Below are positions 1 through 19,653 of a stretch of DNA of 21,728 nucleotides, one piece after another. The notes beneath the pieces were generated by a model. That model made no database searches. It saw only the letters and a program-made list of their open reading frames with translations, and had not been told where the DNA came from. A program made the position numbers and the translations under genes. Position 1 is the first letter of the stretch; each line of letters starts with the position of its first letter. The stretch is from positions 1-21,728 of the forward strand of contig URTH01000009.1 in the NCBI GenBank assembly GCA_900550775.1. The letters run 5' to 3'. Source of the stretch: an uncultured Eubacteriales bacterium (GTDB lineage: Bacteria; Bacillota; Clostridia; Monoglobales; Monoglobaceae).

Positions 1-337
1 GATTTCGGCGTGGGCAAGAGACGGCTTAACGGACGATCAGATCGCGAACAACATGGGCATATCAAGAAGTACGCTAAGCGAATGGAAAAAGAAATTCCCG
101 GACATTTCGGACGCCTTAAAAAGAAGCAAGGCGGTTGTTGACATCGAGGTTGAGAACGCACTCTATCAGGCGGCGCTTGACGGCAATATGACGGCCATTA
201 TTTTTTGGCTGAAAAACAGAAAGCCCGAAAAATGGCGCGACAGGCAGCAGGTTGAAATGAGCGGTGAGGTAGGCCGCGGTAATCCGTTTGAGGGACTTAC
301 CACCGAGGAATTAAAGAAGTTGGCCGGCGATGGATAA
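1..337 (+). CDS. Terminase small subunit (5' truncated by the window edge)
   Basis: The reading frame is open from base 2, so the gene starts outside the window; the ATG at 53 is an internal Met. The visible part begins with a helix-turn-helix (DGLTDDQIANNMGISRSTLSEW), the DNA-recognition fold of phage small terminases that bind the pac/cos site. A helical part follows (DALYQAALDG-like; EVENALYQAALDG) with the typical FWLKNRKPEKWRDRQQVE segment, and then an acidic tail. The protein would recruit the large terminase to concatemeric DNA. The stop overlaps the large terminase start by 8 nt, so the two are probably translationally coupled. Family assignment is firm; the cutting strategy (pac or cos) cannot be told. 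Confidence 0.9.
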   Translation, partial: ISAWARDGLTDDQIANNMGISRSTLSEWKKKFPDISDALKRSKAVVDIEVENALYQAALDGNMTAIIFWLKNRKPEKWRDRQQVEMSGEVGRGNPFEGLTTEELKKLAGDG

Positions 338-1727
338 AAACATTGTAAACGGGGCGATGATTGAACTTGCAAGACGTGAGTTTTGGTATTACTGTCGTGT
401 GATGGCCCCCGATTTTTATAAGCCTGAACGGGGCTACTTAAAAACGCTGTGTGATGAATTTCAAACATTTATCGGAAGCGACGACAGAATCCTTGTCGTA
501 AACGTTCCGCCGCGGTTTGGAAAATCGAGGACGGCGCAGATGTTTACCCAGTGGTCGCTTGGAAGAAACAAATCCTTAAAGGTTATGACCGGCTCATACA
601 ATGAAACGCTGTCAACGGTGTTTTCCAAGAATGTGCGCAATGCAATTGATGAGAAAAAAGCGGATGCGAACAAAACCGTTTATTCGGACATATTCCCCGA
701 TGTTAAAATCAAGCACGGGGACGGCGCGATGAACCTGTGGAGCCTGGAGGGCGGCTACAACAATTATCTTGCAACATCGCCGAGCGGAACCGCGACAGGC
801 TTTGGATGTGATTTGATGATTTTGGACGATCTTATTAAATCCGCATTGGAGGCGCATAACGAGGATTTGCTTGAAAAACACTGGGAATGGTTTGTAAATA
901 CCATGCTTTCAAGACTTGAAGAGGGCGGAAAAATCATTATTATTATGACGCGCTGGGCGACAAGGGATTTGGCAGGACGAGCGATGCAATTCTTTAAAGA
1001 CGAGGGCTGGAGATGCCGTCAGGTGATGATGCCGGCGCAATATCCGGACGGTTCCATGCTTTGCAGTGATATTCTGTCTGAAGATTCCTACCAGGCAAAG
1101 ATTCGGGCAATGGGCGAGGATATTGCAAAAGCAAATTACCAGCAAATGCCGATTGATATGAAAGGACGGCTTTATTCATCGTTTAAAACCTATGAAACGC
1201 TGCCAAACGACAAACACGGCAATTCGTTGTTTACGGTGGTAAAGTCATACTGTGATACGGCGGATACCGGTGCGGATTATCTGTGTAACATTATCTATGG
1301 CGTATATCATAAAGAGGCGTATGTCCTGGATGTGTATTATACAAAAGACGGAATGGAAATCACGGAACCGGAGACGGCGAAGCGTCTGATGCGCTTTGGC
1401 GTGAACGAAGCGGATATAGAGAGTAATAACGGCGGCCGCGGTTTTGCGAGAAATGTGGAGCGGGAGCTTTCGCAGCTTGGCTCAAACCGCACAAAAATAA
1501 ACTGGTTTTACCAGAGCAAGAATAAAGCAGCACGAATTTTATCAAACAGCACATGGGTTATGTCGCACGTTTATTATCCGGTAAACTGGAAGGATCGGTG
1601 GCCGGAATATTATGACGCGATGACAAACTACCAAAAAGAAGGAAGAAATAAGCATGACGATGCCCCGGATGCAACCACGGGCATTGCCGAAAAGGCGGAC
1701 AGGCCGGATTTGTTTAGTTTTAAATAG
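330..1727 (+). CDS. terL: Terminase large subunit (packaging ATPase/nuclease)
   Basis: This is the packaging motor: an N-terminal ATPase drives DNA into the prohead and a C-terminal RNase H-like nuclease cuts concatemers. Walker A is PPRFGKS at residues 60-66. Walker B is LMILDD at 162-167. A coupling motif IIIIMTRW lies near 202-209. Candidate nuclease metal ligands are Asp309/Asp312 (CDTADTGAD), Glu364 (DIESNNGG) and Asp443/Asp444/Asp447 (HDDAPDA). At 465 aa the length is normal and nothing appears to be missing. The ATG overlaps the end of the small subunit gene, and the portal gene starts 13 nt downstream. Confidence 0.96.
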   Translation: MDKNIVNGAMIELARREFWYYCRVMAPDFYKPERGYLKTLCDEFQTFIGSDDRILVVNVPPRFGKSRTAQMFTQWSLGRNKSLKVMTGSYNETLSTVFSKNVRNAIDEKKADANKTVYSDIFPDVKIKHGDGAMNLWSLEGGYNNYLATSPSGTATGFGCDLMILDDLIKSALEAHNEDLLEKHWEWFVNTMLSRLEEGGKIIIIMTRWATRDLAGRAMQFFKDEGWRCRQVMMPAQYPDGSMLCSDILSEDSYQAKIRAMGEDIAKANYQQMPIDMKGRLYSSFKTYETLPNDKHGNSLFTVVKSYCDTADTGADYLCNIIYGVYHKEAYVLDVYYTKDGMEITEPETAKRLMRFGVNEADIESNNGGRGFARNVERELSQLGSNRTKINWFYQSKNKAARILSNSTWVMSHVYYPVNWKDRWPEYYDAMTNYQKEGRNKHDDAPDATTGIAEKADRPDLFSFK

Positions 1728-1740
1728 CAGGTGAGAGAAA

Positions 1741-3201
1741 ATGATAGAATACAATGCAGGAACAAACCAAGCGATCAAAATCATCGAGGCGGGGGCGGCG
1801 AGTGCAAAGAGCCGGATCGACATCATCTATTATGAGCTTGCGGCGTGGCTAAAATCAGAAACAAGAAAAGAAATGCTGGACGGCTGGAACTATTATGACG
1901 GCAGACAGGATATCTTAGACAAAAGGCGTGAAATGATCAGCGAAAACGGGCAAAAGGTTACGATTTCAGCGCTGCCGAATTCCAGAATCACGGACAACCA
2001 ATACCGAAAGGCGGTCATCCAAAAGACAAATTATCTTTTCGGGCGGCCAATTACCTTTGAGACTGAGAGTAATTCTTATTACGCATTGCTGCAAGGGATT
2101 TTTAACAAACGGTTTCAGCGAATGATAAAAAATGCCGGCATTGATGTCTACAATGGCGGTATAAGCTGGATTTTCCCGTATGTTGATGACGGGCAGCTTC
2201 GGTTTAAAAAGCTGCCGTCCTATAATGTATTGCCGTTTTGGTCGGATGACGAACATACCGAACTTGATCTGGCCGTAATTTATGAACCGGTTATCGCGTA
2301 TGAGGGGCGGAAGAAGAAAACAATCAAAAGGGTCACGGTTCTGGACAGCGAGGGAGCAAAATATTACGTGATGCAGGGCGGCGCCTTGATTCCCGATGCA
2401 GAGCGTGAGGATGAACCGTATCTTGCGATCGGAGATCAGGCGTTTGCATGGGATCGGATTCCCCTTGTTGCGCTAAAGCGCGATGCGCAGGAAACACCGC
2501 TGATCCGCGGTGTGAAATCAATCCAGGATGCAATCAACACCATTTTATCCAATTTTGAGGACAATATGCTGGAGGACATGCGAAACACGATTCTCATACT
2601 CGTTAATTATTCCGGCGAGAATTTGGGGGAATTTCGGCGCAACCTTGCATCTTGCGGCTGCGTAAAGGTAGAGACGGTGGACGGTGTAACCGGTGACGTT
2701 AAGACGCTGCGGATTGAAGTCAATGCAGAGAATTACAAGGCGATACTGGAAGTGCTGAAAAAAGCAATGATAGAAAACACGATGAGTTATGACGCAAAGG
2801 ACGACCGTATCGGAGGCAATGCAAACCAGCTGAATATCATGTCGATGTATAATGACATTGATTTGGACGCGAATAATACTGAGACGGAGGCGCAGGCAGC
2901 CTTTGAGGAATTGCTTGCGTTTGTGAATACCTTTCTTAGGATCACAGGGAAAGGTGATTATGATAACGAAAGCGTAAAGGTTGTATTCAATCGGGATATG
3001 CTGATCAACGAGACAGAAATTATGGAATCGCTCTCAAAACTCGGCTTGCAGTTATCCCAGGAGACGCTGATTAACCAGGTGCCGTACATTACGGATGCAA
3101 AGCTGGAAATGGAACGGATCAAGGCCGAGCAGGAGGAGCAGCGCAGGCTCACAGACGTATACAGCGGCGCATTTGGTAAGCCCAAGGAAAACGAGGAATA
3201 G
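1741..3201 (+). CDS. Portal protein (SPP1 gp6 family)
   Basis: The portal forms the ring at the unique capsid vertex through which DNA enters and leaves. At 486 aa it is the usual size of the SPP1 gp6-like family. Family-typical segments are DNQYRKAVIQKTNYLFGRP (residues 85-103), the VALKRDAQETPLIRGVKSIQDAIN block mid-protein, and helical repeats NNTETEAQAAFEELLAFVN. The C-terminus has a charged, probably coiled-coil stretch (ERIKAEQEEQRRL). It lies between the large terminase and the MuF head protein, the standard position. AGGTGAG just upstream serves as ribosome binding site. The family call is based on sequence style and synteny. Confidence 0.93.
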   Translation: MIEYNAGTNQAIKIIEAGAASAKSRIDIIYYELAAWLKSETRKEMLDGWNYYDGRQDILDKRREMISENGQKVTISALPNSRITDNQYRKAVIQKTNYLFGRPITFETESNSYYALLQGIFNKRFQRMIKNAGIDVYNGGISWIFPYVDDGQLRFKKLPSYNVLPFWSDDEHTELDLAVIYEPVIAYEGRKKKTIKRVTVLDSEGAKYYVMQGGALIPDAEREDEPYLAIGDQAFAWDRIPLVALKRDAQETPLIRGVKSIQDAINTILSNFEDNMLEDMRNTILILVNYSGENLGEFRRNLASCGCVKVETVDGVTGDVKTLRIEVNAENYKAILEVLKKAMIENTMSYDAKDDRIGGNANQLNIMSMYNDIDLDANNTETEAQAAFEELLAFVNTFLRITGKGDYDNESVKVVFNRDMLINETEIMESLSKLGLQLSQETLINQVPYITDAKLEMERIKAEQEEQRRLTDVYSGAFGKPKENEE

Positions 3202-3204
3202 GCA

Positions 3205-4755
3205 ATGAATCACGCGGACTATTGGAAGGAGCGCATCCGGGCATTGGAGAAAGCCAGACATGATAGCAACGGAGGGCTTGTCAAAAGGCTTGAAGCCGAA
3301 CTTGATGTTGCTTTTCGGGAGATGGACGATAAGATATCTGGCTGGTATTCGAGAATTGCGAAAAACAATGCGGTGTCGATGGCGGAGGCGCGCAGGATGC
3401 TTTCTTCCGGCGAACTGAAAGAGTTTTATTGGACGGTTGAGGAATACATAAAAAAGGGCAGAGAAAACGGAATCCGTCATAATTGGGAAAAAGAACTTGA
3501 AAACGCGAGCGCGAGGGTGCATATCAGCAAATTAGAGGCATTGAAAATTGAACTTCGCGGGATTGCCGAGCGGCTTGGCACCAGTGAGGAGGCGCAAATA
3601 AGGCGTCATCTTGCCGCGCAGTATGAGGAAACCTATTATCGTACTGCGTTTGAATTGCAAAACGGGATGGGCGTCTATCAAAGCATGGCAAGCATCGGCC
3701 AAAAGCAATTGGAAACGGTATTGTCAAAACCGTGGACGACGGATAAAAAAACGTTTTCGGACAGAATCTGGACGGACAAGGATGCTCTGATCGACGAGGT
3801 AACCCGTCAGCTTACCAGAAATGTATTGCTGGGAAAACCGCGTGAGGATGCGATAAGAGCGATCGCCAAACGGTTTGACACGTCAAAAAGCAATGCAGCG
3901 CGGCTTGTGCATACCGAAAGCGCATTTGTTTCCGCAGAGGCGGCAAGAGATACATACGCATCTCTTAATGTTGAAAGGTTTGAGGTCGATGCCGCGCTTG
4001 ACGCAAAGACGTGCGGTATATGCGGTGAGATGGACGGAAAGGTTTTTGACAGAAAGGATTATCAGCCGGGGCTTACCGCGAATCCGTTTCATCCGAATTG
4101 CAGATGTACGACCGTGCCGTATATTGATGACGATATCCAGCGAGAACTTGAAAGGAAAACAGGGCGCGCTATACGCAATCCGGAGACGGGTAAAACCGAG
4201 ATTACGGACGCCATGACCTACAAGGAATGGAAAGAGAAATATGTTGACAATTCGGCCGAAAATGGTATAATAGAAACAGGAAGAGGAAGAGCCGTGAGTA
4301 TAAGTAATATAGATAGGCCGATAGAACAACGAAATACCGCAAAAGGAAACCCAAACGCAATATTGCAAATTGGAAGGCCGTTAAACAACAGACAGCAGAG
4401 ACTTCTTGACAGCTTAAATGAATATGATAGCCGAACTGTTGTGAACAAAAAAACAGTTAGTATGAAGGATTTGTCAGCGCTAACCGCGTTTACAGGCGAT
4501 GAATTCGCGATGTTTACCAAGGGCGGCGAAAGACTTATCATACGGGGAAACACGCATAGCGTAAACATTGACGTGAAAAAGGCTCTAGAACTCAGCAAGC
4601 AGGGTTACAGGTGGAGCGGACATACACATCCGGGTGTCGAATGGAACTCTTCAATGCCATCCGGCGGTGATAAAGAAATACTCAAATGTTTCAAACAGGA
4701 AACAAGTGTGATTTACGACTCGAAGGGGAAGTATAGAACTTTTGATAAGGAGTGA
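3205..4755 (+). CDS. MuF-type minor head protein fused to a C-terminal JAMM/JAB-like domain (candidate phage polymorphic toxin)
   Basis: Residues 1-310 form a SPP1 gp7/Mu gpF minor head protein. The signature runs from ARLVHTESAFVSAEAARDTY (232-251) to CGICGEMDGKVFD (270-282) and HPNCRC (296-301), with paired Cys-x2-Cys and Cys-x-Cys. These proteins sit inside the head on the portal and can be ejected with DNA. After a linker (about 311-365) comes an extra domain of about 150 aa. It ends with H473-x-H475, then S486-x2-D489 (SGHTHP...MPSGGD), with a candidate upstream acid at Glu433. This resembles the JAMM/MPN zinc motif (H-x-H-x(n)-S-x2-D), here with 10 residues between His475 and Ser486 rather than the usual 7. 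Variable C-terminal toxin domains on MuF proteins of temperate phages are known. The activity of this one is inference; the domain could instead be a non-catalytic MPN fold. Base composition becomes AT-richer from about 4240. A promoter-like sequence lies inside the gene, and a possible internal GTG start is at 4294. Confidence 0.9.
   Translation: MNHADYWKERIRALEKARHDSNGGLVKRLEAELDVAFREMDDKISGWYSRIAKNNAVSMAEARRMLSSGELKEFYWTVEEYIKKGRENGIRHNWEKELENASARVHISKLEALKIELRGIAERLGTSEEAQIRRHLAAQYEETYYRTAFELQNGMGVYQSMASIGQKQLETVLSKPWTTDKKTFSDRIWTDKDALIDEVTRQLTRNVLLGKPREDAIRAIAKRFDTSKSNAARLVHTESAFVSAEAARDTYASLNVERFEVDAALDAKTCGICGEMDGKVFDRKDYQPGLTANPFHPNCRCTTVPYIDDDIQRELERKTGRAIRNPETGKTEITDAMTYKEWKEKYVDNSAENGIIETGRGRAVSISNIDRPIEQRNTAKGNPNAILQIGRPLNNRQQRLLDSLNEYDSRTVVNKKTVSMKDLSALTAFTGDEFAMFTKGGERLIIRGNTHSVNIDVKKALELSKQGYRWSGHTHPGVEWNSSMPSGGDKEILKCFKQETSVIYDSKGKYRTFDKE
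4244..4271 (+). promoter_or_regulatory. Internal sigma-A-type promoter at the MuF/C-terminal domain junction
   Basis: TTGACA at 4244-4249, a 16-nt spacer, and TATAAT at 4266-4271 are both perfect consensus hexamers. An extended -10 TGn precedes the -10 at 4263-4265. The predicted start is near A4278. It lies in the codons of the linker (VDNSAENGII) joining the head domain to the extra domain. It would transcribe the C-terminal domain, the small gene at 4760 and the RNA at 5044. A Lys-Tyr-Val-Asp...Asn-Gly-Ile-Ile linker could produce part of this by chance, so it needs a transcript test. Confidence 0.6.
4294..4755 (+). other. Possible separately translated C-terminal domain (internal GTG start)
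   Basis: GTG at 4294-4296 is in frame with the head protein (Val364). A purine-rich AAGAGGAAGAG (4281-4291) lies upstream, giving AAGAGG a 7-nt spacing. It would yield a free protein of 153 aa containing only the extra domain with the H-x-H...S-x2-D motif. A transcript from the internal promoter would start about 16 nt before this GTG, which is a short leader. The free form is inference. The alternative is that the promoter serves only the downstream small gene. Confidence 0.3.
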
Positions 4756-4759
4756 TATT

Positions 4760-5029
4760 ATGTGCAAGATGTTTGATGATTGGTCGAAACAGATAGAAGA
4801 ATACTGCATGGAAAACAATCTGAATTTTGAAAAAGCGAAAAAAATGTCAAAATGCTGGAGCAACGATGATATCATTCTTCAGTATTTCAATCCCGAAAAT
4901 GAGAGCGTAAAAAACGGATTAGGTTTGCTCGATGAGACGCCTATGCCGGTCGTTTTGCTGATAACCAAAGATGGAAATAAATTAAAATTTAAACAAACCG
5001 AATATACCCAAAAGTACTTGGCGAATTAA
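4760..5029 (+). CDS. Small hypothetical protein, candidate immunity partner of the MuF C-terminal domain
   Basis: This 89-aa protein has no recognisable catalytic motif. The start at 4760 is chosen because AAGGAG (4747-4752) sits 7 nt upstream; an in-frame upstream codon at 4742 has no ribosome site. The N-terminal half looks helical and charged (MCKMFDDWSKQIEEYC), and the C-terminal half looks beta-rich (PMPVVLLITKDGNKLKF). It follows the MuF fusion gene by 4 nt. A hand count of 4801-4980 gives about 37 % GC, lower than most of the window. This position and size is where MuF polymorphic toxins carry their immunity genes. The immunity role is inferred from position alone; it could be an unrelated accessory protein. 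Confidence 0.75.
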   Translation: MCKMFDDWSKQIEEYCMENNLNFEKAKKMSKCWSNDDIILQYFNPENESVKNGLGLLDETPMPVVLLITKDGNKLKFKQTEYTQKYLAN

Positions 5030-5043
5030 CATATGCAAAGATA

Positions 5044-5144
5044 GGATATTTGAGGTGGAAGAATACGTCCACGTCCACACGCCGATGGTTTGACAAGGGG
5101 AAACCCTGAGAGATGCAGGAGAATTGGACGCCTGCCAAATATCC
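5044..5144 (+). ncRNA. Putative structured RNA of unrecognised class
   Basis: A perfect 9-bp closing helix pairs GGATATTTG (5044-5052) with CAAATATCC (5136-5144). Inside are GTGGA/TCCAC (5055-5059 with 5068-5072, or 5074-5078), AGGG-GAAA-CCCT (5096-5107, a GNRA tetraloop), and GCAGG/CCTGC (5115-5119 with 5131-5135). This is a multi-branched fold of about 100 nt in a non-coding gap. It is followed after 5 nt by a hairpin and a T-rich run, a riboswitch-like arrangement. I do not recognise the class. The helices were found by eye, not by energy calculation. Confidence 0.45.
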
Positions 5145-5149
5145 GAACG

Positions 5150-5180
5150 AGGGACTGCTTATGCCGTCCCTTTCCTTTTG
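5150..5180 (+). terminator. Hairpin with T-rich tail after the putative RNA
   Basis: AGGGAC (5150-5155) pairs with GTCCCT (5166-5171) across a 10-nt loop, followed by TTCCTTTT. It could be a weak intrinsic terminator or the expression platform of the upstream RNA. The interrupted T-tract and short stem make it weaker than the terminator at 5223. Confidence 0.4.
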
Positions 5181-5222
5181 CCCGAAAATAAGGGGAAATA
5201 GGGTATAACAATTCAATAAATC

Positions 5223-5258
5223 AAGCGTTTACATTAAGTTGTAAGCGCTTTTTTTATA
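5223..5258 (+). terminator. Rho-independent terminator
   Basis: AAGCGTTTAC (5223-5232) pairs with GTAAGCGCTT (5241-5250), 10 bp with one G-U, across an 8-nt loop. Seven T residues (5249-5255) close it. It would end transcripts from the internal promoter at 4244. It also sits in the middle of the head operon, so full-length late transcripts would need read-through or antitermination, or a new promoter downstream. Confidence 0.8.
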
Positions 5259-5351
5259 CACAAAATTATCCGCAGCGCACGGAACAAAATATAAGCGCAC
5301 CGCATTACCGGGACTTGCCGGACAAAAAGGACAGCGGTTTTAGGAGGTAAC
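5259..5351. other. Non-coding leader of the scaffold gene
   Basis: Together with 5030-5258 this forms the only gene-free gap above 300 bases. It holds a possible nested hairpin (ACCGC 5299-5303 with GCGGT 5334-5338, enclosing CCGG 5308-5311 with CCGG 5318-5321), and then AGGAGGT at 5342-5348 directly before the scaffold ATG. I see no convincing promoter here. Confidence 0.3.
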
Positions 5352-5954
5352 ATGTTAGAATGGCTCAAAACAGTTTTAGGAGAGGCCTATACCGATGATA
5401 TTGAAAAAAAAGTATCTGACGAGATAGGCAAAAATTTTGTTGCAAGGGCAGACTTCAACGCCAAGCTGGAGGAGATTAAAACGCTCCATACCCAGATCGG
5501 CGAACGGGACACGCAGCTTGAGAACTTGAAAAAGGTTGACGCAGAAGGACTGAAACAAAGGATTACGGAGTTGCAGAATGAAAATAAGAAGGCGCAGGAT
5601 GCATATAATGCCAAACTTGACGAGATTCGGTTTGAACATGCGCTGGAGGCTGCGCTTTCCGGGGCAAAGGCGCGGAATGTTAAGGCGGCAGCCGCACTGC
5701 TTGACCGTGAGACGATTACGTTTAAGGACGGAAAACTTTCAGGGCTTGATGAACAGATTCAGTCTATGAAAAAGGACAATGCGTATCTTTTTGAAGATGA
5801 CGCGGCAAAAAATCCTGTCAAGGGGATGAAACCCATAGGAAGTATGCCGCCGCAACAAAACAACAGCAGCGGCCTCGGCGCTTCTTTTGCGCAGCGGTAT
5901 AACGCAAGGCACGGGGCGGTACAGGAAAACAATCAAAATCAGAAGGGGGAATAG
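5352..5954 (+). CDS. Capsid scaffolding protein (phage Gp20 family)
   Basis: The internal scaffold guides assembly of the major capsid protein and leaves before maturation. It is 200 aa, with the N-terminus MLEWLKTVLGEAYTDDIEKKV and then a long charged coiled coil with heptad-like spacing (about residues 35-95; KLEEIKTLHTQIGERDTQLENL). A conserved helical block ALEAALSGAKARNVKAAAALLD and a Gln/Asn-rich tail follow, typical of the Gp20 family of Gram-positive phages. It carries AGGAGGT 4-5 nt before the ATG. Genes for the decoration-like and capsid proteins follow. Confidence 0.92.
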   Translation: MLEWLKTVLGEAYTDDIEKKVSDEIGKNFVARADFNAKLEEIKTLHTQIGERDTQLENLKKVDAEGLKQRITELQNENKKAQDAYNAKLDEIRFEHALEAALSGAKARNVKAAAALLDRETITFKDGKLSGLDEQIQSMKKDNAYLFEDDAAKNPVKGMKPIGSMPPQQNNSSGLGASFAQRYNARHGAVQENNQNQKGE

Positions 5955-5957
5955 AAC

Positions 5958-6560
5958 ATGGCTTATATCAATAGAAAAGCAACAGAAAAGAGACCGAATT
6001 TTATCGCGAGCGAAGTCGGTCTTGTGTTAAAAACGGTTCAGGTAAACGACACGGGGATTACTGCGGACGAGTATGGCTATAAAACAGTGAAAGGCGGAAC
6101 GGTTTATCCGAGCAACGATGCCGGTGCGAAGGGCATTATCTTTGAAAACGTTGACGTAACACATGGGGAGAGGGCGGCAAGTCTTATTGTCGGCGGCCGC
6201 ATTTACACAGACAGACTGCATACTGCGCCGAGCAGCGCAGCCAAAACGGCGCTTGCGGCAAAAGGAATTGTTTTTGACGATGACGAACCGACAATCTCCA
6301 GGGCGGTTACCAAGGCGAAAGTGTACACGGCCGGAACAACCGCATTTTCTGCATCAGATATTGCGGAGAATGCAGATGGGCTGACGCTTGAAATAACGGC
6401 CATCGGCAGCGATAACGATGCGGAGATTGCCACCGCCGCGCTTACTGCGAAAAAGGTGACGATGACAAAGGTGAAAGCCGGGAAAACGCAGATCACGTGT
6501 ACCGTAACAGACAGCCTTGGCGGCAAGACTGATATCACGGTTCCGGTAGAAATTGCCTAA
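5958..6560 (+). CDS. Putative capsid decoration protein with C-terminal Ig-like domain
   Basis: This 200-aa protein sits between scaffold and major capsid, the usual place for head decoration or fibre proteins. Residues 1-115 (AYINRKATEKRPNFIASEVG ... GGRIYTDRL) form an unassigned Gly/Val-rich beta domain. Residues about 116-200 read as a bacterial Ig-like beta sandwich (LTLEITAIGSDNDAEIA...KAGKTQITCTVTDSLGGKTDITVPVEI). Ig-like domains exposed on capsids are known to adhere weakly to mucus or carbohydrates. The structural role is inferred from position and composition. Confidence 0.7.
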   Translation: MAYINRKATEKRPNFIASEVGLVLKTVQVNDTGITADEYGYKTVKGGTVYPSNDAGAKGIIFENVDVTHGERAASLIVGGRIYTDRLHTAPSSAAKTALAAKGIVFDDDEPTISRAVTKAKVYTAGTTAFSASDIAENADGLTLEITAIGSDNDAEIATAALTAKKVTMTKVKAGKTQITCTVTDSLGGKTDITVPVEIA

Positions 6561-6581
6561 AGAAAGGGAGGATAAAAACTT

Positions 6582-7607
6582 ATGGATATTTTGCAACTTA
6601 TTTCAAACAGAGATCGGCTGGATTTTTCGCAGAATTTATCTGTGAAGAGAAATTACATGGGAGACACCCTGTTTCCTGATGAAAAAACACAGAATCTGGA
6701 GGCAGAGTACCTCAGACTTGCGGACGGGCTGCAACTGCCGACCATGGCGATGGTGCACGGCTTTGATACGGAGGCGGCAATCGGAGATCGTCCTGAACTG
6801 GAAAAGGTCAGAATTGAAAAGCTGCTGATTAAGGAAAAAATCAATCAGACAGAGCGCGTCCAGATGTATCTCCAAAAAGGCGTTTCGGATGAATCGGCGC
6901 TGATCGGTTATGTGTATGACGACATGGGACGGCTTGCGGAATCCGTTAAGACCAGAACCGAGGTTGCGAAAATGGAGGTAATTGCAACCGGAAAGATGAC
7001 GGTAAAAGAAAATAACCTTAATTTTGCGCTGGATTACGATGTGCCGAAGAGTAATTTTAAAAATGTAGATTGGAGCAATGCGGAGGCCGATATCCTTGGT
7101 GATATTCAGGAGATGGCAGATGCCGCAAAGGCGCTCGGAAAGACGGTGAACCGTGCTGTCACGTCAAGCAAGATTGTAGCGCTTATGCGGAAAAACAAGG
7201 GGATTCAGACGGCGATTTACGGCGTAAACGGTGTCGGAACCTTTGTAACTTTGGCAAAGATCAACGATCTGCTTACCGAGATGTTTGGTATTACGATTGT
7301 GACCAATGACGACATGTATCGATACAAAAAAGCGAGCGGCGCGATGGCAACGGAATACTATTTTCCGCGCGATAAATTCTCGCTCGTGTCTGTCGGTATG
7401 GGCGGCAGCGTCGGAACCGGTCTTTGGGGCGTGACCCCCGAAGAGGCAGAGTATGGGGCGTATGATCAAAAATCAGCGGATCAGTATATTACCATTACGC
7501 AGTGGGCAACGCCTGACCCGGTTGCGGTATGGACAAAGGCCTCGGGACTTTTCGTTCCTGTTTTGCCTGACCCTGCCGGGCTGATGATTGCCACGGTTAA
7601 ACTGTAA
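6582..7607 (+). CDS. Major capsid protein (lambda gpE family)
   Basis: This is the HK97-fold shell protein. The N-terminus (MDILQLISNRDRLDFSQNLSVKRNYMGDTLFPDEKTQNLEAEY in overlapping pieces) matches the gpE-type N-arm, followed by LPTMAMVHGFDTEAAIGDRPELEKVRIE. The length of 341 aa is what I recall for lambda gpE. The C-terminal half holds VWTKASGLFVPVLPDP, another family-typical end. AAGGGAGG lies 12 nt before the ATG. It follows the scaffold and decoration genes. No protease gene is visible, in keeping with a separate scaffold. Confidence 0.93.
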   Translation: MDILQLISNRDRLDFSQNLSVKRNYMGDTLFPDEKTQNLEAEYLRLADGLQLPTMAMVHGFDTEAAIGDRPELEKVRIEKLLIKEKINQTERVQMYLQKGVSDESALIGYVYDDMGRLAESVKTRTEVAKMEVIATGKMTVKENNLNFALDYDVPKSNFKNVDWSNAEADILGDIQEMADAAKALGKTVNRAVTSSKIVALMRKNKGIQTAIYGVNGVGTFVTLAKINDLLTEMFGITIVTNDDMYRYKKASGAMATEYYFPRDKFSLVSVGMGGSVGTGLWGVTPEEAEYGAYDQKSADQYITITQWATPDPVAVWTKASGLFVPVLPDPAGLMIATVKL

Positions 7608-7616
7608 GGTGATGCC

Positions 7617-7997
7617 ATGAAGGAGCGGGCAATCACGCTTTTGCAGACGCTTGGGATATTATTGTCTGCAAGAGATATGGATTTGATCGATATCCTATGT
7701 GAAGATGCGGCAGAGGAAATCAAGAATTTCTGCCATCTTTCGCAGGTGCCGAAAGGTTTGGTAAACAGCGCTGCGGACAATGTCTGCGGCGCTTTTATCC
7801 GCCGAAAATTGCTTGCCGGCGAGTTTGTCGGCGCCGATGCTTCAGAAGCGGCAGTAAAATCCTATACGGCAGGCGATATCAGTGTGACCTTTGGCGATGG
7901 CGCCGCAACTGCCGCCCAGCGGTGGGAGCAGCTGGCAAACGCCCTTGAGGGCAGCGGAAAGGAGCGGTGGACATGCTTCAGACGGATTCGCTGGTAA
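7617..7997 (+). CDS. Head-tail connector protein (SPP1 gp15 / HK97 gp6-like)
   Basis: This 126-aa mostly helical protein forms the connector ring below the portal. The N-terminal helix (MKERAITLLQTLGILLSARDMDLIDILCEDAAEEIKNFC in pieces) matches the family pattern of a small protein with an Asp/Glu-rich helix and N-F-C-H. A middle stretch SYTAGDISVTFGDGAA is typical of the connectors' beta loop. AAGGTGATGCC precedes the start. The next gene starts 25 nt before this one ends. Confidence 0.82.
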   Translation: MKERAITLLQTLGILLSARDMDLIDILCEDAAEEIKNFCHLSQVPKGLVNSAADNVCGAFIRRKLLAGEFVGADASEAAVKSYTAGDISVTFGDGAATAAQRWEQLANALEGSGKERWTCFRRIRW

Positions 7998-8356
7998 GCG
8001 CGGTGAGAAAGACCATTGAATCGGCGTATACCGATACCATGACGGTTTTTGTTATGGCCGGCGGTGCCGATGGGCTTTTTGATGATAAAAGCGAGCAGAT
8101 CTCTATTGAGAATGAACCGTGCCGAGTCTCATACAAGACGGATTTAACGGTTTCGCGCGCGGCGGCCGGAGACGGCGCGGCAGATAACGAACAAACTGTA
8201 ATCTTGTTCTGTCGTCCGGAGCTGACCGTTCCGGCAGGGTGCAGGGTCTCGGTCATGCGAAACGGTGTGCAGACGGATTATTGCAGATCGGGCGAGCCGG
8301 CAAGATATGACACGCACCAGGAAATTCCGCTTGCGCTGTTTAAGAGGTGGGCGTAA
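7973..8356 (+). CDS. Head closure protein (SPP1 gp16-like joining protein)
   Basis: The start ATG at 7973 is chosen because AAAGGAG (7958-7964) is 8 nt upstream; the in-frame GTG at 7967 is too close. The 127-aa product (MLQTDSLVSAVRKTIESAYTDTMTVFV ... AGCRVSVMRNGVQTDYCRSG) is a small beta-barrel protein of the head-tail joining family that plugs the connector after packaging. It overlaps the connector gene by 25 nt and shares its last base with the next start. Confidence 0.8.
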   Translation: MLQTDSLVSAVRKTIESAYTDTMTVFVMAGGADGLFDDKSEQISIENEPCRVSYKTDLTVSRAAAGDGAADNEQTVILFCRPELTVPAGCRVSVMRNGVQTDYCRSGEPARYDTHQEIPLALFKRWA

Positions 8357-8775
8357 TGGCGAGATGGGGACGCTGTGATTTTAAACAGTTAAAACGGCTC
8401 AGGGAGCGGCTCGGCGAGTTCGAAAAGGCGGATAAAGACCGTATTTGCACCGATATTGCAAAGGATATTGCGTCGCGGCTTTTGAGGATGGCAAAGAAAC
8501 GCACCCCGGTTGACACGGGGGCGCTCATTGGGTCGTGGGACGAGGAAAACAAACCGCTGACCGTGGAAAAAAAGGGAAATGTGTTTGAGGTCACGGTTAC
8601 CAATTCGATGACCTATGCCAGCTATGTGGAATACGGGCACAGGACGCGCGGCGGCGGTTGGGTCGAGGGCATGTATATGATAACCGTTCCGGAAGAGATG
8701 CTGAAAACGGCGGCGCCCAAAATCATAGAAAGGCACATTGAAAAAGAACTGAAGAGGGTGTTTGACGGTGATTGA
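8356..8775 (+). CDS. Neck/tail completion protein (HK97 gp10-like)
   Basis: A 139-aa protein starting at ATG 8356, which shares its A with the stop of the preceding gene; GAGGTGG lies upstream. The hallmark AKKRTPVDTGALIGSW (residues about 47-62) and VTNSMTYASYVEYGHRTRGGG (about 78-98) are diagnostic of HK97 gp10-type proteins, which attach the tail terminator to the head. A GTG at 8347 would add three residues but has no proper ribosome site. Confidence 0.9.
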   Translation: MARWGRCDFKQLKRLRERLGEFEKADKDRICTDIAKDIASRLLRMAKKRTPVDTGALIGSWDEENKPLTVEKKGNVFEVTVTNSMTYASYVEYGHRTRGGGWVEGMYMITVPEEMLKTAAPKIIERHIEKELKRVFDGD

Positions 8776-9190
8776 TGACATGATTGCCGGGATCGCAAAA
8801 AGGCTCCGCGAGGTCTTGCCGTGCCGGATTTATAAAAATCCCGTGCCGCAAGGGCTGGAGCGACCCTGTTTTTTGATTAACCCGATCTTGTTTACCAGAG
8901 TGCAGCAGCTTGGCACAAGGGAGAGACGCATCTATCCGTTTGATGTGGTTTATTTGCCGAAAACGGAGGATCGGAGCGAGATTTACCGGGTTATGAACGT
9001 GCTGATGCGTGCGCTGCGCATTATTGACACCGATTTTGCCGGCAAGCTGCTGGGGCGCGATATGGAATGCGAAATCATAGACGGCGTATTGCATTTTAGG
9101 GTTCGGTATGATTTTTCGGTCTGCCAAAAACAGAGTACAGACGATCCCATGGAAATTTTAGATGTAAAAGGAGAGCTGAAACATGAGTAA
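8768..9190 (+). CDS. Tail terminator-like protein (XkdJ position)
   Basis: A protein of 140 aa beginning at GTG 8768, preferred over TTG 8762 because GAGGGTG (8754-8760) gives a 7-nt spacing. The product has IAGIAKRLREVLPCRIYKNPVPQGLERPCFLIN, a pattern of small alpha-beta tail terminators in clostridial contractile phages, followed by FDVVYLPK and RVMNVLMRALRIID. It would cap the tail tube end and join it to the neck. It overlaps the neck gene by 8 nt. Family placement is by pattern and synteny. Confidence 0.75.
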   Translation: MIDDMIAGIAKRLREVLPCRIYKNPVPQGLERPCFLINPILFTRVQQLGTRERRIYPFDVVYLPKTEDRSEIYRVMNVLMRALRIIDTDFAGKLLGRDMECEIIDGVLHFRVRYDFSVCQKQSTDDPMEILDVKGELKHE

Positions 9191-9383
9191 TGAGGTGAAA
9201 AAGAACGTCCCGGAAAAGGGAGCCGAGACGGAATGCAAATTCACAAAAGGACAGCTTGTGCAGTCAAAGCGTTTTATAGAAAACTGCGATATTTTATCCG
9301 CGCTGCTGGACAGCGATCAGGAATATACCATTGCACAGGCCGAAGCGGTGATAGATAAATATCTGAAAGGAGGGGTTTCGTAA
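9183..9383 (+). CDS. Small conserved tail-region protein of unknown function
   Basis: A 66-aa acidic/basic helical protein. Its core (FTKGQLVQSKRFIENCDILSALLDS) and C-terminal helix (YTIAQAEAVIDKYLKG) follow a pattern I have seen in proteins directly before tail sheath genes in Gram-positive contractile phages. AAGGAGA precedes the ATG. It overlaps its neighbours by 8 and 1 nt, so it is co-translated with the terminator and sheath genes. No function is assigned. Confidence 0.8.
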   Translation: MSNEVKKNVPEKGAETECKFTKGQLVQSKRFIENCDILSALLDSDQEYTIAQAEAVIDKYLKGGVS

Positions 9384-10693
9384 TGGCACTTGGCGGAGGT
9401 AGTTTTACAACGATGAACAAGATCATGCCCGGCGCGTACATTAATTTTGTCTCGGTCGGAAAGACAGCGCCGACCATTGCAGAACGCGGCATTGTAGCCG
9501 TGCCGATGGAGCTTAATTGGGGGCAGACGGGAGAGATCATAGAGGTTGAGGCAGCGGATTTTATGAAAAGATCGGTTGATCTTTTTGGCTATGACTATTC
9601 GGATGCAAAGATGAAAAACTTCCGTGAGTTATTCCGGGGTGCGAAAACAGTGATGGTATACCGGCTCGGGACGGGCGCAAAGGCGGCATCCAACACCTAT
9701 GCGACCGCCAACTATCCGGGCACAAGAGGAAACGACATTACCATTTCCATCGAATCGAGCGTGGACGATGCAGGAAAGTACATTGTGAAAACAAAGGTTG
9801 ACGGCATCGTATACGACACGCAAACGGTGGCGGAAGCCGGAGGGTTAAAGGCGAACGCATGGGTAACTTTTAAAAGCTCCGCTTCGCTGGCAGCCACAAC
9901 GGGAACGGCGCTGGCGGGTGGCGAGAACGGGACGGTGTCCGGTACGGACTATCAGACGTTTTTAAATAAGCTGGAGGCGTATTCGTTCCACATTTTAGTC
10001 AGTGATGTGACGGAAAAGGCGACCCAATCGCTTTTTGCGGCATACACAAAACGGATGCGCAATGAAGTTGGCGTCAAATTCCAGTGCGTACTGTATCAGC
10101 ACGGGGAAGCGGACGACTACGGCGTAATTTCGGTTGAGAATAGCGTTTTAGACAGCGGTGCAAAGGAGAGCGCGCTGGTATACTGGACGGCCGGGAAGGA
10201 GGCCGGCTGCCCGCTGAGCAGCGGCCTTGCGAATGCCAGGTACGATGGCGAGTACACCGTGAGCGCGGATTACACATCAAAGCAGTTGGAGGCGGCATTA
10301 GCGGCCGGAAAGTTTGTTTTTCACCGGCAGGGCAGTGAAATCCGCGTCCTGGACGATATTAATACGCTGGTGACTACTACGGAAGAGGTCAACGAGGAAT
10401 TTAAGAACAACCAGGTAATCCGTGTAATCGACCAGTTTGCCGGGGATTCGGCGCGTGTTTTTGCCAATAAGTATTACGGAAAGATTAACAATACCAATGT
10501 CGGCAGAAACGCCCTCCGCAATGATATCATCAAAATTCTGGATGAATACGTAAAGCTCGGCGCAGTGGAGGAATACGACCCGGAGGATATCAAGGTTGAT
10601 GTCGGAAATACCAAACGCGATGTAACGCTTGCGGTTTATATCCGGATTGCCGAAACAATGAGCAAGCTGTATATCACGGCACATATTGGTTAA
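9383..10693 (+). CDS. Tail sheath protein (XkdK-like)
   Basis: The sheath is the contractile outer tail layer. The protein is 436 aa, as usual for XkdK. The N-terminus (MALGGGSFTTMNKIMPGAYINFVS) carries the exchangeable strand that links subunits. C-terminal hallmarks are VLDDINTLVTTTEEVNEEFKNNQVIRVIDQ and the closing IAETMSKLYITAHIG, which holds the C-terminal strand. A mid-protein insertion (about residues 105-190) is beta-rich. AAAGGAGG lies before the ATG. Its presence makes this a myovirus-type tail. Confidence 0.95.
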   Translation: MALGGGSFTTMNKIMPGAYINFVSVGKTAPTIAERGIVAVPMELNWGQTGEIIEVEAADFMKRSVDLFGYDYSDAKMKNFRELFRGAKTVMVYRLGTGAKAASNTYATANYPGTRGNDITISIESSVDDAGKYIVKTKVDGIVYDTQTVAEAGGLKANAWVTFKSSASLAATTGTALAGGENGTVSGTDYQTFLNKLEAYSFHILVSDVTEKATQSLFAAYTKRMRNEVGVKFQCVLYQHGEADDYGVISVENSVLDSGAKESALVYWTAGKEAGCPLSSGLANARYDGEYTVSADYTSKQLEAALAAGKFVFHRQGSEIRVLDDINTLVTTTEEVNEEFKNNQVIRVIDQFAGDSARVFANKYYGKINNTNVGRNALRNDIIKILDEYVKLGAVEEYDPEDIKVDVGNTKRDVTLAVYIRIAETMSKLYITAHIG

Positions 10694-10708
10694 AGGAGGA
10701 AACGGCGG

Positions 10709-11188
10709 ATGGATTATGAAAAAATTGATTATATGACGGCCGATAAGGCGATCAGCGGCTCGCAGGGGATGGTTTGGGTTACGTTTAATGATACCAATGA
10801 AAGATTTTCTTTTGGAAGGCTTATTAAGCTGGAGGCAAAGGCAAAGCTGAATAAAACTACCCTCCCTGTCCTCGGAAAGTCAGGAAAGGTGCATAAGGTC
10901 GGCTCCTGGGAAGGGGAAGGCTCGGCAACGCTTTACTATTGCGACAGCGCCATGCGCAAAAGGGTGGCTGCGTACAAAAAGACCGGCAAGATGTTTACCA
11001 TGGACATTGAGGTCTATAACGATGACGAGACGTCAAGCCTTGACGCGCAATGCACCACGCTGAAAAATTGCTTGCTTGACGAAATCGTGCTTGCAAAGAT
11101 TGACGCGGAGGCGGAGTATCTGGATGAAGATATCAGCTTTACGTTTGATGATTTTGATATTCCGGATGCATTTGAGACGCGCTCGTAA
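10709..11188 (+). CDS. Tail tube protein (XkdM-like)
   Basis: A protein of 159 aa forming the inner tube through which DNA passes. The body (GSQGMVWVTFNDTNERFSFGRLIKLEAKAKLNKTTLPVLGKSG in pieces) and the LDEIVLAKIDAEAEYLDEDISFTFDDFDIPDAF ending are characteristic of XkdM-type tubes. AAAGGAGG (from 10694) precedes the ATG at 10709. It lies directly after the sheath gene. A strong hairpin follows at 11200. Confidence 0.93.
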   Translation: MDYEKIDYMTADKAISGSQGMVWVTFNDTNERFSFGRLIKLEAKAKLNKTTLPVLGKSGKVHKVGSWEGEGSATLYYCDSAMRKRVAAYKKTGKMFTMDIEVYNDDETSSLDAQCTTLKNCLLDEIVLAKIDAEAEYLDEDISFTFDDFDIPDAFETRS

Positions 11189-11199
11189 ACAAGACATGA

Positions 11200-11219
11200 G
11201 AGGGGCGGAAACGCCCCTC
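11200..11219 (+). promoter_or_regulatory. GAAA-capped hairpin between tube and chaperone genes
   Basis: A perfect 8-bp GC-rich stem (GAGGGGCG with CGCCCCTC) closes a GAAA tetraloop. No T-run follows, so it is not a classical terminator. It could slow 3' decay or attenuate, raising tube over chaperone expression. The regulatory effect is inference. Confidence 0.6.
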
Positions 11220-11244
11220 GATAAAGATGTAGGGAGATGATATT

Positions 11245-11676
11245 ATGGCAGCAAATTTAAAGGCGTTTTTAAAGGAAAACGCGGTGGTTCGGGACGATGT
11301 TTTTGTGGCAGTCAGCAAGCGGTTTATCGGCGAGGACGGAGCGCCGATCCCGTGGCAGGTTTCGCCGATTACCGCAACGCAGGACGAGGAAGTCCGCAAG
11401 CGCTGCACAAGAAGGGTGCCGGTGCCGGGAAAGAAAAATATGTATCAGCCGGAGATTGACTACGATGCGTATCTGGGGGCGCTGGCGGCGAAATGCACGG
11501 TGTTCCCGAATCTGAACGATGCAGAATTACAGGATTCTTACGGTGTGAAGGGCGCGGGCGAATGCCTGAAAGCGATGCTCGAACCCGGCGAATACTACGA
11601 TTATCTTGCAAAGGTGCAGAAAATCAACGGATTTGATGTAACGATGGACGATAAGGTGGAAGAGGCAAAAAACTAA
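11245..11676 (+). CDS. Tail assembly chaperone, short form (XkdN-like)
   Basis: The in-frame product is 143 aa, binding the tape measure during tube assembly. It contains DVFVAVSKRFIGEDGAPIPWQVSPIT, the EEVRKRCTRRVPVPGKKNMY block and FPNLNDAELQDSYGVKGAGECLKAMLEPGEYYDYLAKVQKINGFD in pieces, all typical of XkdN. A GGGAGATGATATT leader precedes the ATG. It ends one codon after a slippery A AAA AAC, so a second, longer product is expected (see the frameshift entry). Confidence 0.92.
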   Translation: MAANLKAFLKENAVVRDDVFVAVSKRFIGEDGAPIPWQVSPITATQDEEVRKRCTRRVPVPGKKNMYQPEIDYDAYLGALAAKCTVFPNLNDAELQDSYGVKGAGECLKAMLEPGEYYDYLAKVQKINGFDVTMDDKVEEAKN

Positions 11677-11852
11677 TTCGCGGGGGAGACCCCGACAGTA
11701 ACTATGCGTATTATTGCTTACACAAGCTGCATATGCTTCCCTCTGCGTATATTGCCTTGCAGAGGGAAGAGCGTGCGTTTATCATTGCCGCAATCGATAT
11801 TCGCACGGAAGAAGAGGAAAAAGCGAGGAAAGCGGCAAGCCGCAAGCGTTAG
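11245..11852 (+). CDS. Tail assembly chaperone, -1 frameshift extended form
   Basis: A -1 shift on A AAA AAC (11667-11673) bypasses the TAA and rereads from C11673 in a frame open to TAG at 11850-11852. The extra 59 residues begin LIRGGDPDSNYAYYCLHKLHMLPS and end with a Lys/Arg-rich tail, giving a product of about 202 aa. Two-part chaperones made this way (as in lambda G/GT) occur in many tailed phages. The extension has no start codon or ribosome site of its own at its upstream end. Coordinates describe the joined reading (11245..11673 then 11673..11852). Confidence 0.85.
11667..11694 (+). promoter_or_regulatory. Programmed -1 ribosomal frameshift signal
   Basis: A slippery heptamer A AAA AAC (11667-11673) is in the correct zero frame (GCA AAA AAC). 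A 7-nt spacer (11674-11680) precedes a hairpin CGGGG/CCCCG (11681-11685 with 11690-11694) closed by a GAGA (GNRA) tetraloop. This is the standard architecture of an efficient -1 site. The stop codon lies immediately after the heptamer. Confidence 0.88.
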
Positions 11853-11876
11853 CAAGGCGGAGAGGAGATGATAAAA

Positions 11877-14048: not shown

Positions 14049-15199
14049 TGTATTCACTGTATCTTGCAGGAACCAGAATGCCGGTGCCGCCCGAAAAGAT
14101 TGAGATTGCCACAAAAGGCAAAAACGAGACCGTGACGCTGATTAGCGGCGAAGAGGTCAATCTGATTAAAAAGCCGGGGCTTTCGGAGTGTTCCTTTGAA
14201 CTATTGCTCCCGGCGCATCCGTACCACTTTGCATTTTACGAAGCCGGGGTATTTCAGACGCCGGACTACTATACCGAACTGTTTGAATTTTTAATGACAA
14301 GTGAAAGCTACTTCTGTCTGGATTTGTACCGGGAAAGCCCGGACGGAGCGGAACAGCTTCGGCATATCAATATGCCGGTCACTTTAGAAGAATACAGTGT
14401 TGCGGAAAACGCGGAGGATGGACAGGATTGGGTGGTAAAGCTCAAATTGAAATACTATCGTGCGTACGGAACAAAGGTTTTGGTGCCGAACGCAAGCGGC
14501 AGCGGATATACGGTTGCGCGCGTCGACACCAAGGAGGCGGTGCGTGTTGTTGTGACAAAAAAGGATGATACGCTGCAAAGCATCTGCCTGAGGGAATTTC
14601 AGAGCGATGCCAAGGAATATCTGGACAAGGTGTACCGGCTGAACAAGGCGACCTTCGATCAGTACAATAAGGGCGATGTCTCCTATATTGTTGAAAACCC
14701 GGAGGAATGGGAGGCCGATGCCATGACGCTGAAATCCAATATTGCGGCGCTTGTGGATAAGGCGTTCCTTGGCGGTCACCGCGACGGCCTTGCGGAAAGC
14801 GATCCGGGTCTGCACTGGTCGCAGCCGTATCTCGTTTCCTTGCAGGACAAGGATGCGATTTCAAACTGGCGCGTCTGGGCGTATGGGGACGAGGGTGCGG
14901 CCTCGTGGCTTGATCTGGAAAGCGGCCTGGTGACGCAGGCGTATATGATGGCTCTTGTTGATAAGATCACCGGCGGCACGTGCTACAAATACGTTGACCG
15001 CATTTGCGATCACTGGGGGAGAAATCACCTGGACAGCCTTTGCGACAAGGGGATGATAAAGAATCCCGAAAAGTGGGAAAACTTTCAGGCTCCGGTTGAA
15101 AACAGCAATGCGTTGTCTTTGGTCAATCAAGCGCTTGCGGCAACGATTGACAAGTACAGGGTATATCCAGGCATGCGCCTTTTGCTTTGGGAAAAGTAG
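14048..15199 (+). CDS. XkdP-like baseplate protein with LysM split by SLH-like repeats
   Basis: A 383-aa protein next to the tape measure. Residues 1-150 are an XkdP-type N-terminal domain that attaches to the tube tip or hub. A LysM-like fold then starts (VRVVVTKKDDTLQSICLREF, 165-184, to YRLNKATF about 196-203) and resumes only at the end (YRVYPGMRLLLWEK, 370-383). Between them about 160 residues look like two to three repeats with HW..xLxSLxDKxxI and a later MALVDK-type helix. Copies are seen at 256-310 and 322-366, and a third partial end at 217-242. This recalls S-layer homology (SLH) modules. LysM and SLH both bind cell wall polymers. The insertion is unusual; its function is inferred. 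The start shares a base with the tape measure stop. Confidence 0.82.
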   Translation: MYSLYLAGTRMPVPPEKIEIATKGKNETVTLISGEEVNLIKKPGLSECSFELLLPAHPYHFAFYEAGVFQTPDYYTELFEFLMTSESYFCLDLYRESPDGAEQLRHINMPVTLEEYSVAENAEDGQDWVVKLKLKYYRAYGTKVLVPNASGSGYTVARVDTKEAVRVVVTKKDDTLQSICLREFQSDAKEYLDKVYRLNKATFDQYNKGDVSYIVENPEEWEADAMTLKSNIAALVDKAFLGGHRDGLAESDPGLHWSQPYLVSLQDKDAISNWRVWAYGDEGAASWLDLESGLVTQAYMMALVDKITGGTCYKYVDRICDHWGRNHLDSLCDKGMIKNPEKWENFQAPVENSNALSLVNQALAATIDKYRVYPGMRLLLWEK

Positions 15200-15239
15200 C
15201 GTATTTCATATATTTTGATAGAAAAAGGCTGGTGGTTTT

Positions 15240-19651: not shown

Positions 19652-19653
19652 CG

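Follow-up and report, generated by a model that had tools for sequence, protein, structure and literature searches.

The window analyzed here, a 21,728-nucleotide (nt) stretch of contig URTH01000009.1 (assembly GCA_900550775.1) from an uncultured Eubacteriales bacterium, carries phage head and tail genes in the order terminase, SPP1-type portal, MuF, small gene, RNA, terminators, scaffold, capsid and contractile-tail sheath. The MuF gene continues past its head domain into an extra C-terminal domain with JAMM-like residues, and a predicted promoter of sigma-A consensus, with hexamers constrained at the DNA level, sits at the changeover from head protein to exchangeable domain. The best explanation of this locus, to which we give a probability of roughly 0.68, is a capsid-linked cassette of polymorphic-toxin type with its own transcription signals. 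The gene and the elements of the putative unit are as follows, with lengths in amino acids (aa):

3205..4755, + strand: MuF (SPP1 gp7-like) minor head protein plus C-terminal JAMM-like domain, 516 aa (PF04233, TIGR01641)
4244..4271, + strand: promoter TTGACA-16-TATAAT with extended -10, within linker codons; direct reading, conserved in relatives
4282..4296, + strand: Shine-Dalgarno (SD)-like AGAGGA and in-frame internal GTG start (4294-4296); SD duplex -8.7 kcal/mol
4294..4755, + strand: internal open frame for the C-terminal domain on its own, 153 aa, with the E / HxH / S / D set
4760..5029, + strand: small partner gene (ORF2), 89 aa, probable immunity protein; 31 homologues
5045..5143, + strand: skipping-rope RNA (Rfam RF02924), 49.9 bits
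5150..5171 (about), + strand: hairpin with T-rich tail right behind the RNA, -13.8 kcal/mol
5223..5255, + strand: intrinsic terminator at the end of the unit, with an 11-bp stem (5223-5250) and a T run

Direct reading of the letters gives TTGACA at 4244-4249, a spacer of 16 bp, TG at 4263-4264 and TATAAT at 4266-4271, so that the extended -10 promoter which a preliminary description had placed inside the MuF gene is present as described. Its position at the joint between the head domain and the extension holds as well: the N-terminal MuF domain is matched at residues 198-303 (PF04233, E 2.2e-15) and MuF proper ends at about residue 303, the motif YKEWKEKYVD occupies residues 339-348, MuF proteins of other phages that are barely extended, or not at all, terminate just past this motif, and the promoter begins (4244) inside its VD codons. 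A scan of both strands of window positions 1-20000 returned 27 promoter-like hits, among which this was the sole 12/12 match; because the scan total compares with 22.9 +/- 5.2 in shuffles, the weaker hits are uninformative. In 3000 dinucleotide shuffles of the window junction the expected value for a 12/12 match was 0. Within the spacer, positions 4251-4260 form a 10-bp perfect palindrome (TTCGGCCGAA); the spacers of relatives differ, and the palindrome is therefore probably not a conserved operator.

DNA was fetched for relatives of the C-terminal domain and the joint was examined in each, with 91 non-redundant loci kept out of 99 scored; identical junctions, four loci without a scorable upstream region and one locus without a domain hit (L150) were left out. 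A junction match of at least 10/12 was found in 62 of the 91 loci, of at least 11/12 in 54 and of 12/12 in 37, as compared with 154 (3.4%), 37 and 20 of 4550 random control windows from the same loci. Among the 62, 38 loci have VDN/IDK/LDK-type linkers with TTGACA in frame 1 and a 16-bp spacer, 15 have LTN-type linkers with TTGACA in frame 0 and a 17-bp spacer, and nine have other frames or spacers; in stand-alone copies of the domain (L170, L171, L193, L209 and L211) the promoter lies outside any long frame. The hexamers are thus spaced at the 16-18 bp of a sigma-A promoter and conserved in relatives.

A codon test on promoter-selected linkers is partly circular, and a protein-selected test was used in its place. 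Linkers were chosen solely by the tripeptide [GD]-I-[IMLV], which yielded 60 non-identical loci out of 103 (38 without the tripeptide and 5 with an identical key were left out). The Gly/Asp codon ended in T in all 60 linkers (16.5 expected) and the first Ile was encoded by ATA in all 60 (21.3 expected); the second Ile codon, with its third base beyond the hexamer, was freer yet biased (45 of 55 against 17.6 expected). TATAAT was present in 51 of the 60 and TATATT in the remainder, versus TATAAT at 25 of 248 occurrences of the same tripeptides elsewhere in the loci. Complementary to this test, we aligned the codons of 58 loci column by column, a comparison that controls for relatedness because every column has the same underlying tree. 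In this alignment the excess identity of codons reached 0.75 and 0.81 in the two codons holding most of the -35 and 0.71, 1.00, 1.00 and 0.55 in the codons with the TG and the -10, versus only 0.13 and 0.04 in two mid-spacer codons and a mean of 0.07 (sd 0.15) in the 149 columns of the domain background. Four codons of the SD region gave 0.38-0.55, and three domain columns (171, 180 and 182) were high toward the end of the frame, where an overlapping small-gene SD may account for the last ones. On the 5' side of the -35 the commonest residue accounts for only about 0.2 in four of five columns, and the shared segment therefore begins at the promoter. The preliminary description had staked its proposal on the hexamers being held beyond the residues they encode, and they are so held in both the 60 protein-selected linkers and the 58-locus alignment. 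By these comparative tests the predicted promoter is real.

The remaining parts of the unit were examined in the same manner. In the window an in-frame GTG with an SD lies 3' of the promoter, and the unit can therefore also encode the C-terminal domain alone; the two closest relatives (P0001 and P0002) have M at the position of this GTG. ORF2 begins 4 nt past the domain stop, with its GGAG at the end of the domain frame. An in-frame start codon lies 9-38 nt past the -10 (mostly 19 or 22) in 58 of the 62 loci that carry the promoter, with a mean SD duplex of -9.1 kcal/mol that is -6 or lower in 51 of the 58, versus 32% of best-of control stretches; this start is present in 15 of the 16 promoter-bearing fusions of the JAMM-like domain within a long frame. 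A gene of 45-125 codons begins at most 60 nt past the domain stop in 80 of 91 loci, a terminator lies at most 350 nt past this small gene in 53 of 75 loci (17 of 23 long-frame fusions) as compared with 66 of 331 random windows and with 18 of 75 for the stretch between the promoter and the small-gene end. Taken together, most tested relatives in the JAMM-like family carry a predicted SD and in-frame start at a near-fixed distance past the promoter, a partner gene and a terminator, and the predicted unit is self-contained in most of them. The constraint on the hexamers and the rates of the small gene and the terminator accord with the preliminary claim of a self-contained unit enclosing a domain and small-gene cassette. 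In the window itself, the intrinsic terminator claimed about 1 kb past the promoter is found as a stem followed by a run of seven T at 5249-5255, the first two of which fall within the stem, together with the second hairpin near 5150-5171. The extra domain and the small gene reported between promoter and terminator are also there, and what had been called a putative RNA is a member of a known family, RF02924. The GC content of the unit is lower than in most of the window, as had been stated (0.39-0.44 in 500-base windows versus about 0.45-0.58 elsewhere, with one other dip of 0.42 at 16501-17000).

Carriers of the JAMM-like domain are varied. Among the 26 long-frame fusions, the upstream part is of the Phage_min_cap2 family in 10, of Phage_Mu_F in 9, of Phage_portal in 2 (L135 and L183) and of VG15 in 1, and one more fusion, L225, has RHS and Tc-type matches. 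A further 19 copies, whose own frame is not a long fusion, have a different gene ending at most 150 nt away. Most of these neighbors are typical chromosomal genes: acetate kinase occurs three times, and single cases include tRNA synthetase, RecQ, histidine kinase and transposase (25 of 31 families listed). Eleven of these 19 have a promoter of at least 10/12. The presence of chromosomal stand-alone copies alongside head fusions indicates that the pair occurs in two forms, an operon of its own and a fusion to a head protein, under identical control signals. We also observed the domain outside phages, at the tip of a long protein in a Pseudohongiella assembly (L225, 379-6591) which has RHS-repeat and weak Tc-type matches and is followed by a small gene.

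The junction promoter extends to unrelated domains on the same kinds of head protein. From viral contigs we assembled 69 non-redundant MuF loci (the best 80 of 573 candidates, plus six others), 61 of which have an extension of at least 60 aa, none of these being the JAMM-like domain. At the joint, 27 of the 61 reached at least 10/12, 15 at least 11/12 and 5 the full 12/12, when 5.5, 1.35 and 0.16 were expected from synonymous recoding of the same peptides and 1.7, 0.09 and 0.01 from dinucleotide shuffles; at the same thresholds a control region 600 nt upstream in these genes gave 3, 0 and 0 of 61, and one inside the extension gave 4, 2 and 0 of 55. A further 13 fusions of portal or minor-capsid-2 proteins were drawn from 25 loci after exclusion of L311, L317, L318 and L323 (JAMM-like domain or self), two duplicates (L314 and L326), the truncated L316 and five loci whose extension is shorter than 60 aa (L331-L335). 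All 10 fusions of the L135-family portal gene (PF04860) to other domains reached at least 10/12 and 8 of them 12/12, on head parts that are 67-97% identical and bear differing C-terminal domains, and 2 of 3 fusions of the L004-family minor-capsid-2 gene (PF06152) have the promoter, both at 12/12; the distant portal relatives with little extension (L331-L335) scored 7-10. Since the larger of these other-domain groups (10 loci) has a portal head and not minor capsid 2, the pattern is widened. With one vote per domain cluster (24 clusters, 105 fusions), 14.3, 9.3 and 5.1 clusters pass the three thresholds versus 4.5, 1.2 and 0.15 expected from recoding. The arrangement is less unusual than the preliminary description had supposed, as it recurs on three kinds of head protein and has a precedent in Salmonella Rhs genes (PMC7043789). 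In its own right, the L135 family (L317-L330) is a case of portal proteins acting as carriers of presumed toxin domains beside MuF, with many C-terminal domains behind one promoter-bearing linker.

Of 26 MuF extensions with the promoter, four were recognized as glutamine deamidase, two as toxin deaminase and one each as Ntox50 and ADP-ribosyltransferase; of 33 without it, seven were recognized as ADP-ribosyltransferases and one as CdiA_C. When fusions to other domains carry the promoter, an in-frame start with a good SD at most 60 nt away is rare (5 of 38); the promoter would therefore mostly serve the gene behind the domain in these fusions, and in the JAMM-like family the domain too. Among eight named or deposited phages, Streptococcus phage MissB1 (TTGATA-16-TATAAT, linker DKTIKDGII) and MT835552 scored 11/12, Javan355 and FNU_1P scored 10/12 (FNU_1P 8/12 with a narrower span), and phiC2, phiJH1301-1, Lj771 and Osiris scored 7-9. 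A separate observation concerns L001 (3285-4135), a MuF gene whose ADP-ribosyltransferase-like extension is interrupted by a frame break and whose joint reads GTGACA-17-TATAAT in AT-rich sequence.

The RNA at 5045-5143 scores above the RF02924 gathering cut-off of 36.7 bits. A covariance model (R1) built from six Rfam hits gave strong scores in 12 of 98 sources other than L008 (the window, L004, L132, L133, L138, L156, L159, L161, L164, L176, L181 and L186), including the near-duplicates L132/L133 and L156/L176 and, in L164, a copy over 4 kb further on. R1 also matched L008, whose MuF carries an HEFGH-type domain, and 1 of 97 sources (L231) in a second set of loci. In several related loci the RNA lies directly 3' of the small gene, and in the window, L004, L161 and L008 a PF06810 scaffold gene follows it. 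Seven of 12 whole genomes contain skipping-rope RNAs, one to five copies each, and five scaffold proteins searched around the genome copies matched in 3 of 18 fetched loci. Occurring in a minority of units and beside a different domain in L008, the RNA is therefore an occasional passenger of units and head operons and not a defining part, and for the same reasons we rejected it as a component of the cassette proper. Two skipping-rope RNAs stand in tandem in L181 (7965-8215), with a second tandem pair on another contig of the same genome, and in L161 a GP20-b RNA (RF03003; 7142-7206) lies directly between skipping-rope and the PF06810 scaffold gene, which puts a pair of structured RNAs one after the other at this point of the head operon. 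Rfam 14 mentions a pseudoknot in skipping-rope in a figure legend, and one study, in the part available, counts it among phage non-coding RNAs; the window RNA is a member of the Rfam family, here placed between the partner gene and the scaffold gene.

Transcription from the junction, its timing in the lysogen and the toxicity and immunity roles are what we infer from this layout, and under the cassette explanation one frame would yield two products. Late lytic transcription would produce the long MuF-domain protein, which would enter the capsid and carry the domain toward the next host cell. With the late genes silent, as they are in a lysogen, a short mRNA would be made from the junction promoter and would yield the small partner protein, most likely an immunity protein or antidote. 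In the JAMM-like family the short mRNA would also give the free domain, and the pair could then act like a toxin-antitoxin unit, while in fusions to other domains, usually without a nearby internal start, the promoter would mainly be for the downstream immunity gene. Because the promoter lies upstream of the swap point, any incoming domain and immunity pair would be expressed at once. We regard it as an even proposition that the junction promoter is built into the capsid-toxin platform (MuF, minor capsid 2 and portal) and not into one cassette, incoming pairs being expressed in the lysogen on landing; if true, it would be through this promoter that the host can safely tolerate the exchange of toxins, which would explain why such exchange is frequent.

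Several results weigh against the cassette explanation or narrow its reach. The JAMM/JAB residue set is well kept (E70, H110, H112 and S123 invariant and D126 at 90% or more in 68 sequences), but the domain has no named toxin family in Pfam or NCBIfam, no Pfam JAB family is among the eight families matched by its 68 members at E up to 0.1, Foldseek gave no E below 0.046, and the partner protein showed no clear fold. The codons at -5 (0.69) and -2 (0.71) beside the hexamers have high excess identity for which the hexamers give no explanation. Ten of the 26 long-frame fusions of the JAMM-like domain lack a match of at least 10/12, the promoter count being 16 with the standard stretch and 20 with a longer one, and the loci are mutually related. 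ADP-ribosyltransferases are more frequent in promoter-negative than in promoter-positive MuF extensions (7 of 33 versus 1 of 26), which indicates that the promoter is not universal. Moreover, with and without the promoter the rates are similar for the small downstream gene behind other MuF domains (24 of 26 versus 30 of 33) and for a terminator past it in other-domain fusions (28 of 32 versus 23 of 30), so that neither correlates with the promoter in other-domain MuF fusions.

Alternative explanations account for part of these data. The preliminary description had itself raised the possibility that linker codons form a chance promoter, and the linker peptide (VDN..ENGIIE) does favor a promoter-like string, with 47% of 3000 synonymous recodings reaching 10/12 and about 1% reaching 12/12; in addition, the short MuF L002 has GTTGAC from ordinary VD codons. 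However, the hexamers are constant where the peptide varies (VDN and LTN frames, a GYN frame and out-of-frame stand-alone copies), and the synonymous bias in the 60 linkers, the codon-identity peaks across the 58 loci and the excess over recoding in non-homologous domains lead us to reject a chance origin, which we hold to be highly improbable. Equally improbable, in our estimate, is that the conserved DNA serves domain swapping as a site of recombination or protein binding and is no promoter. Its location at a boundary that joins unrelated head parts and domains would suit such a site, as would the held codons at -5 and -2, yet conservation centers on two sigma-type hexamers 16-17 bp apart with the mid-spacer codons free, and an SD, a start and a terminator follow at fitting places downstream.

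The domain could instead have arrived as a stand-alone gene with promoter and start, the promoter being retained as a relic without relevance in the fusions. The stand-alone copies beside chromosomal genes (such as acetate kinase, tRNA synthetase and RecQ), of which 11 of 19 have the promoter, are consistent with this history, as is the placing of SD and start in stand-alone copies, which matches that in the fusions. Against a relic, the hexamer sites are held and other synonymous sites of the domain are near background, TATAAT is kept in 17 of 18 protein-selected long-frame fusions (15 of them also with a -35 of 5/6 or better), and the promoter is common to unrelated domains on the same head gene. 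This makes the relic an improbable account of the fusions. We see a somewhat better, if still small, chance that the promoter serves mainly the free JAMM-like enzyme or the skipping-rope RNA in a regulatory or counter-defense function in the lysogen, with ORF2 a partner and not an immunity protein. JAMM fold matches include ubiquitin-like deconjugases (5lda and 9ea4 BubCD), the internal start and SD are kept in fusions, and the RNA directly follows ORF2 in several loci. On the other hand, a domain followed by a small gene (80 of 91 loci) is the usual toxin and immunity layout, one fused copy is on an RHS/Tc-type protein, the RNA is absent from most searched loci, and PADLOC returned no match for the four proteins scanned. 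The cassette explanation thus remains the one that we favor.

Around the unit, the window contains the following head and tail genes:

1741-3201: SPP1-type portal gene (PF05133, E 3.5e-73), directly 5' of the MuF start (3205)
5352..5954, + strand: capsid scaffolding protein, with which the head operon continues (PF06810, E 1e-44)
6582-7607: capsid (PF03864)
9383-10693: contractile-tail sheath

Further downstream, a single tail gene (15240-17270) combines an NlpC/P60-like endolysin domain with a YqbQ-like one, and the last gene (21134-21727), open at the window end, has collagen-like Gly-x-y repeats.

The locus shares much with described systems. MuF polymorphic toxins of temperate phages (Jamet et al., 2017; PMC5576092) have, in the text available, a MuF head domain beside a portal gene, a variable C-terminal domain and a small downstream gene, as here; the window unit differs in adding a junction promoter, an internal start and a closed transcription unit, and the pattern is also found on minor-capsid-2 and portal proteins. 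The words "promoter" and "transcri" do not occur in the main text of that paper, and two later papers on MuF toxins, in the parts available, use "promoter" for plasmid constructs. According to the available portions of the MuF-toxin papers the prophage supplies the immunity protein, and transcription of that gene behind silent late genes is left unstated there. In the literature on internal promoters, polymorphic toxins and prophage head toxins, subscription papers and preprints aside and in the text available, we found no description of a joint promoter in phage head genes. The Tox-JAB domains of Zhang et al. (2012; PMC3482391), among which the toxin JABs may be nucleases according to the part available, resemble the window domain in the E, HxH, S and D motif set of Tox-JAB-1 and Tox-JAB-2 and in C-terminal placement; the window family differs from Tox-JAB-2 in that DUF4329 is absent from the eight Pfam families matched by its 68 members at E up to 0.1.

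By analogy, the closest precedent is offered by the internal promoters of Salmonella rhs genes, for which internal starts and a toxin-antitoxin role are reported in the available text (Starsta et al., 2020; PMC7043789). There, too, the promoter is internal to a long toxin gene and precedes the tip, an internal start is present, and the tip and immunity gene are transcribed when the delivery part is silent; in the window a promoter, an internal ribosome site and a start likewise lie inside a long frame upstream of the tip domain. The Salmonella case concerns a Type VI/Rhs delivery protein of Proteobacteria with a CTG start and a start site confirmed by 5' rapid amplification of cDNA ends, whereas the type found here occurs on phage head proteins with an ATG or GTG start and many domain types, and is known from sequence alone. 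A conserved joint promoter would be a simple, testable answer to how an immunity gene behind silent late genes is transcribed, and could serve as a DNA mark for capsid-borne toxins whose domains are in no database. Head proteins would then join the delivery systems, of which Rhs is the known one, whose tip domain can live a second life as a free protein.

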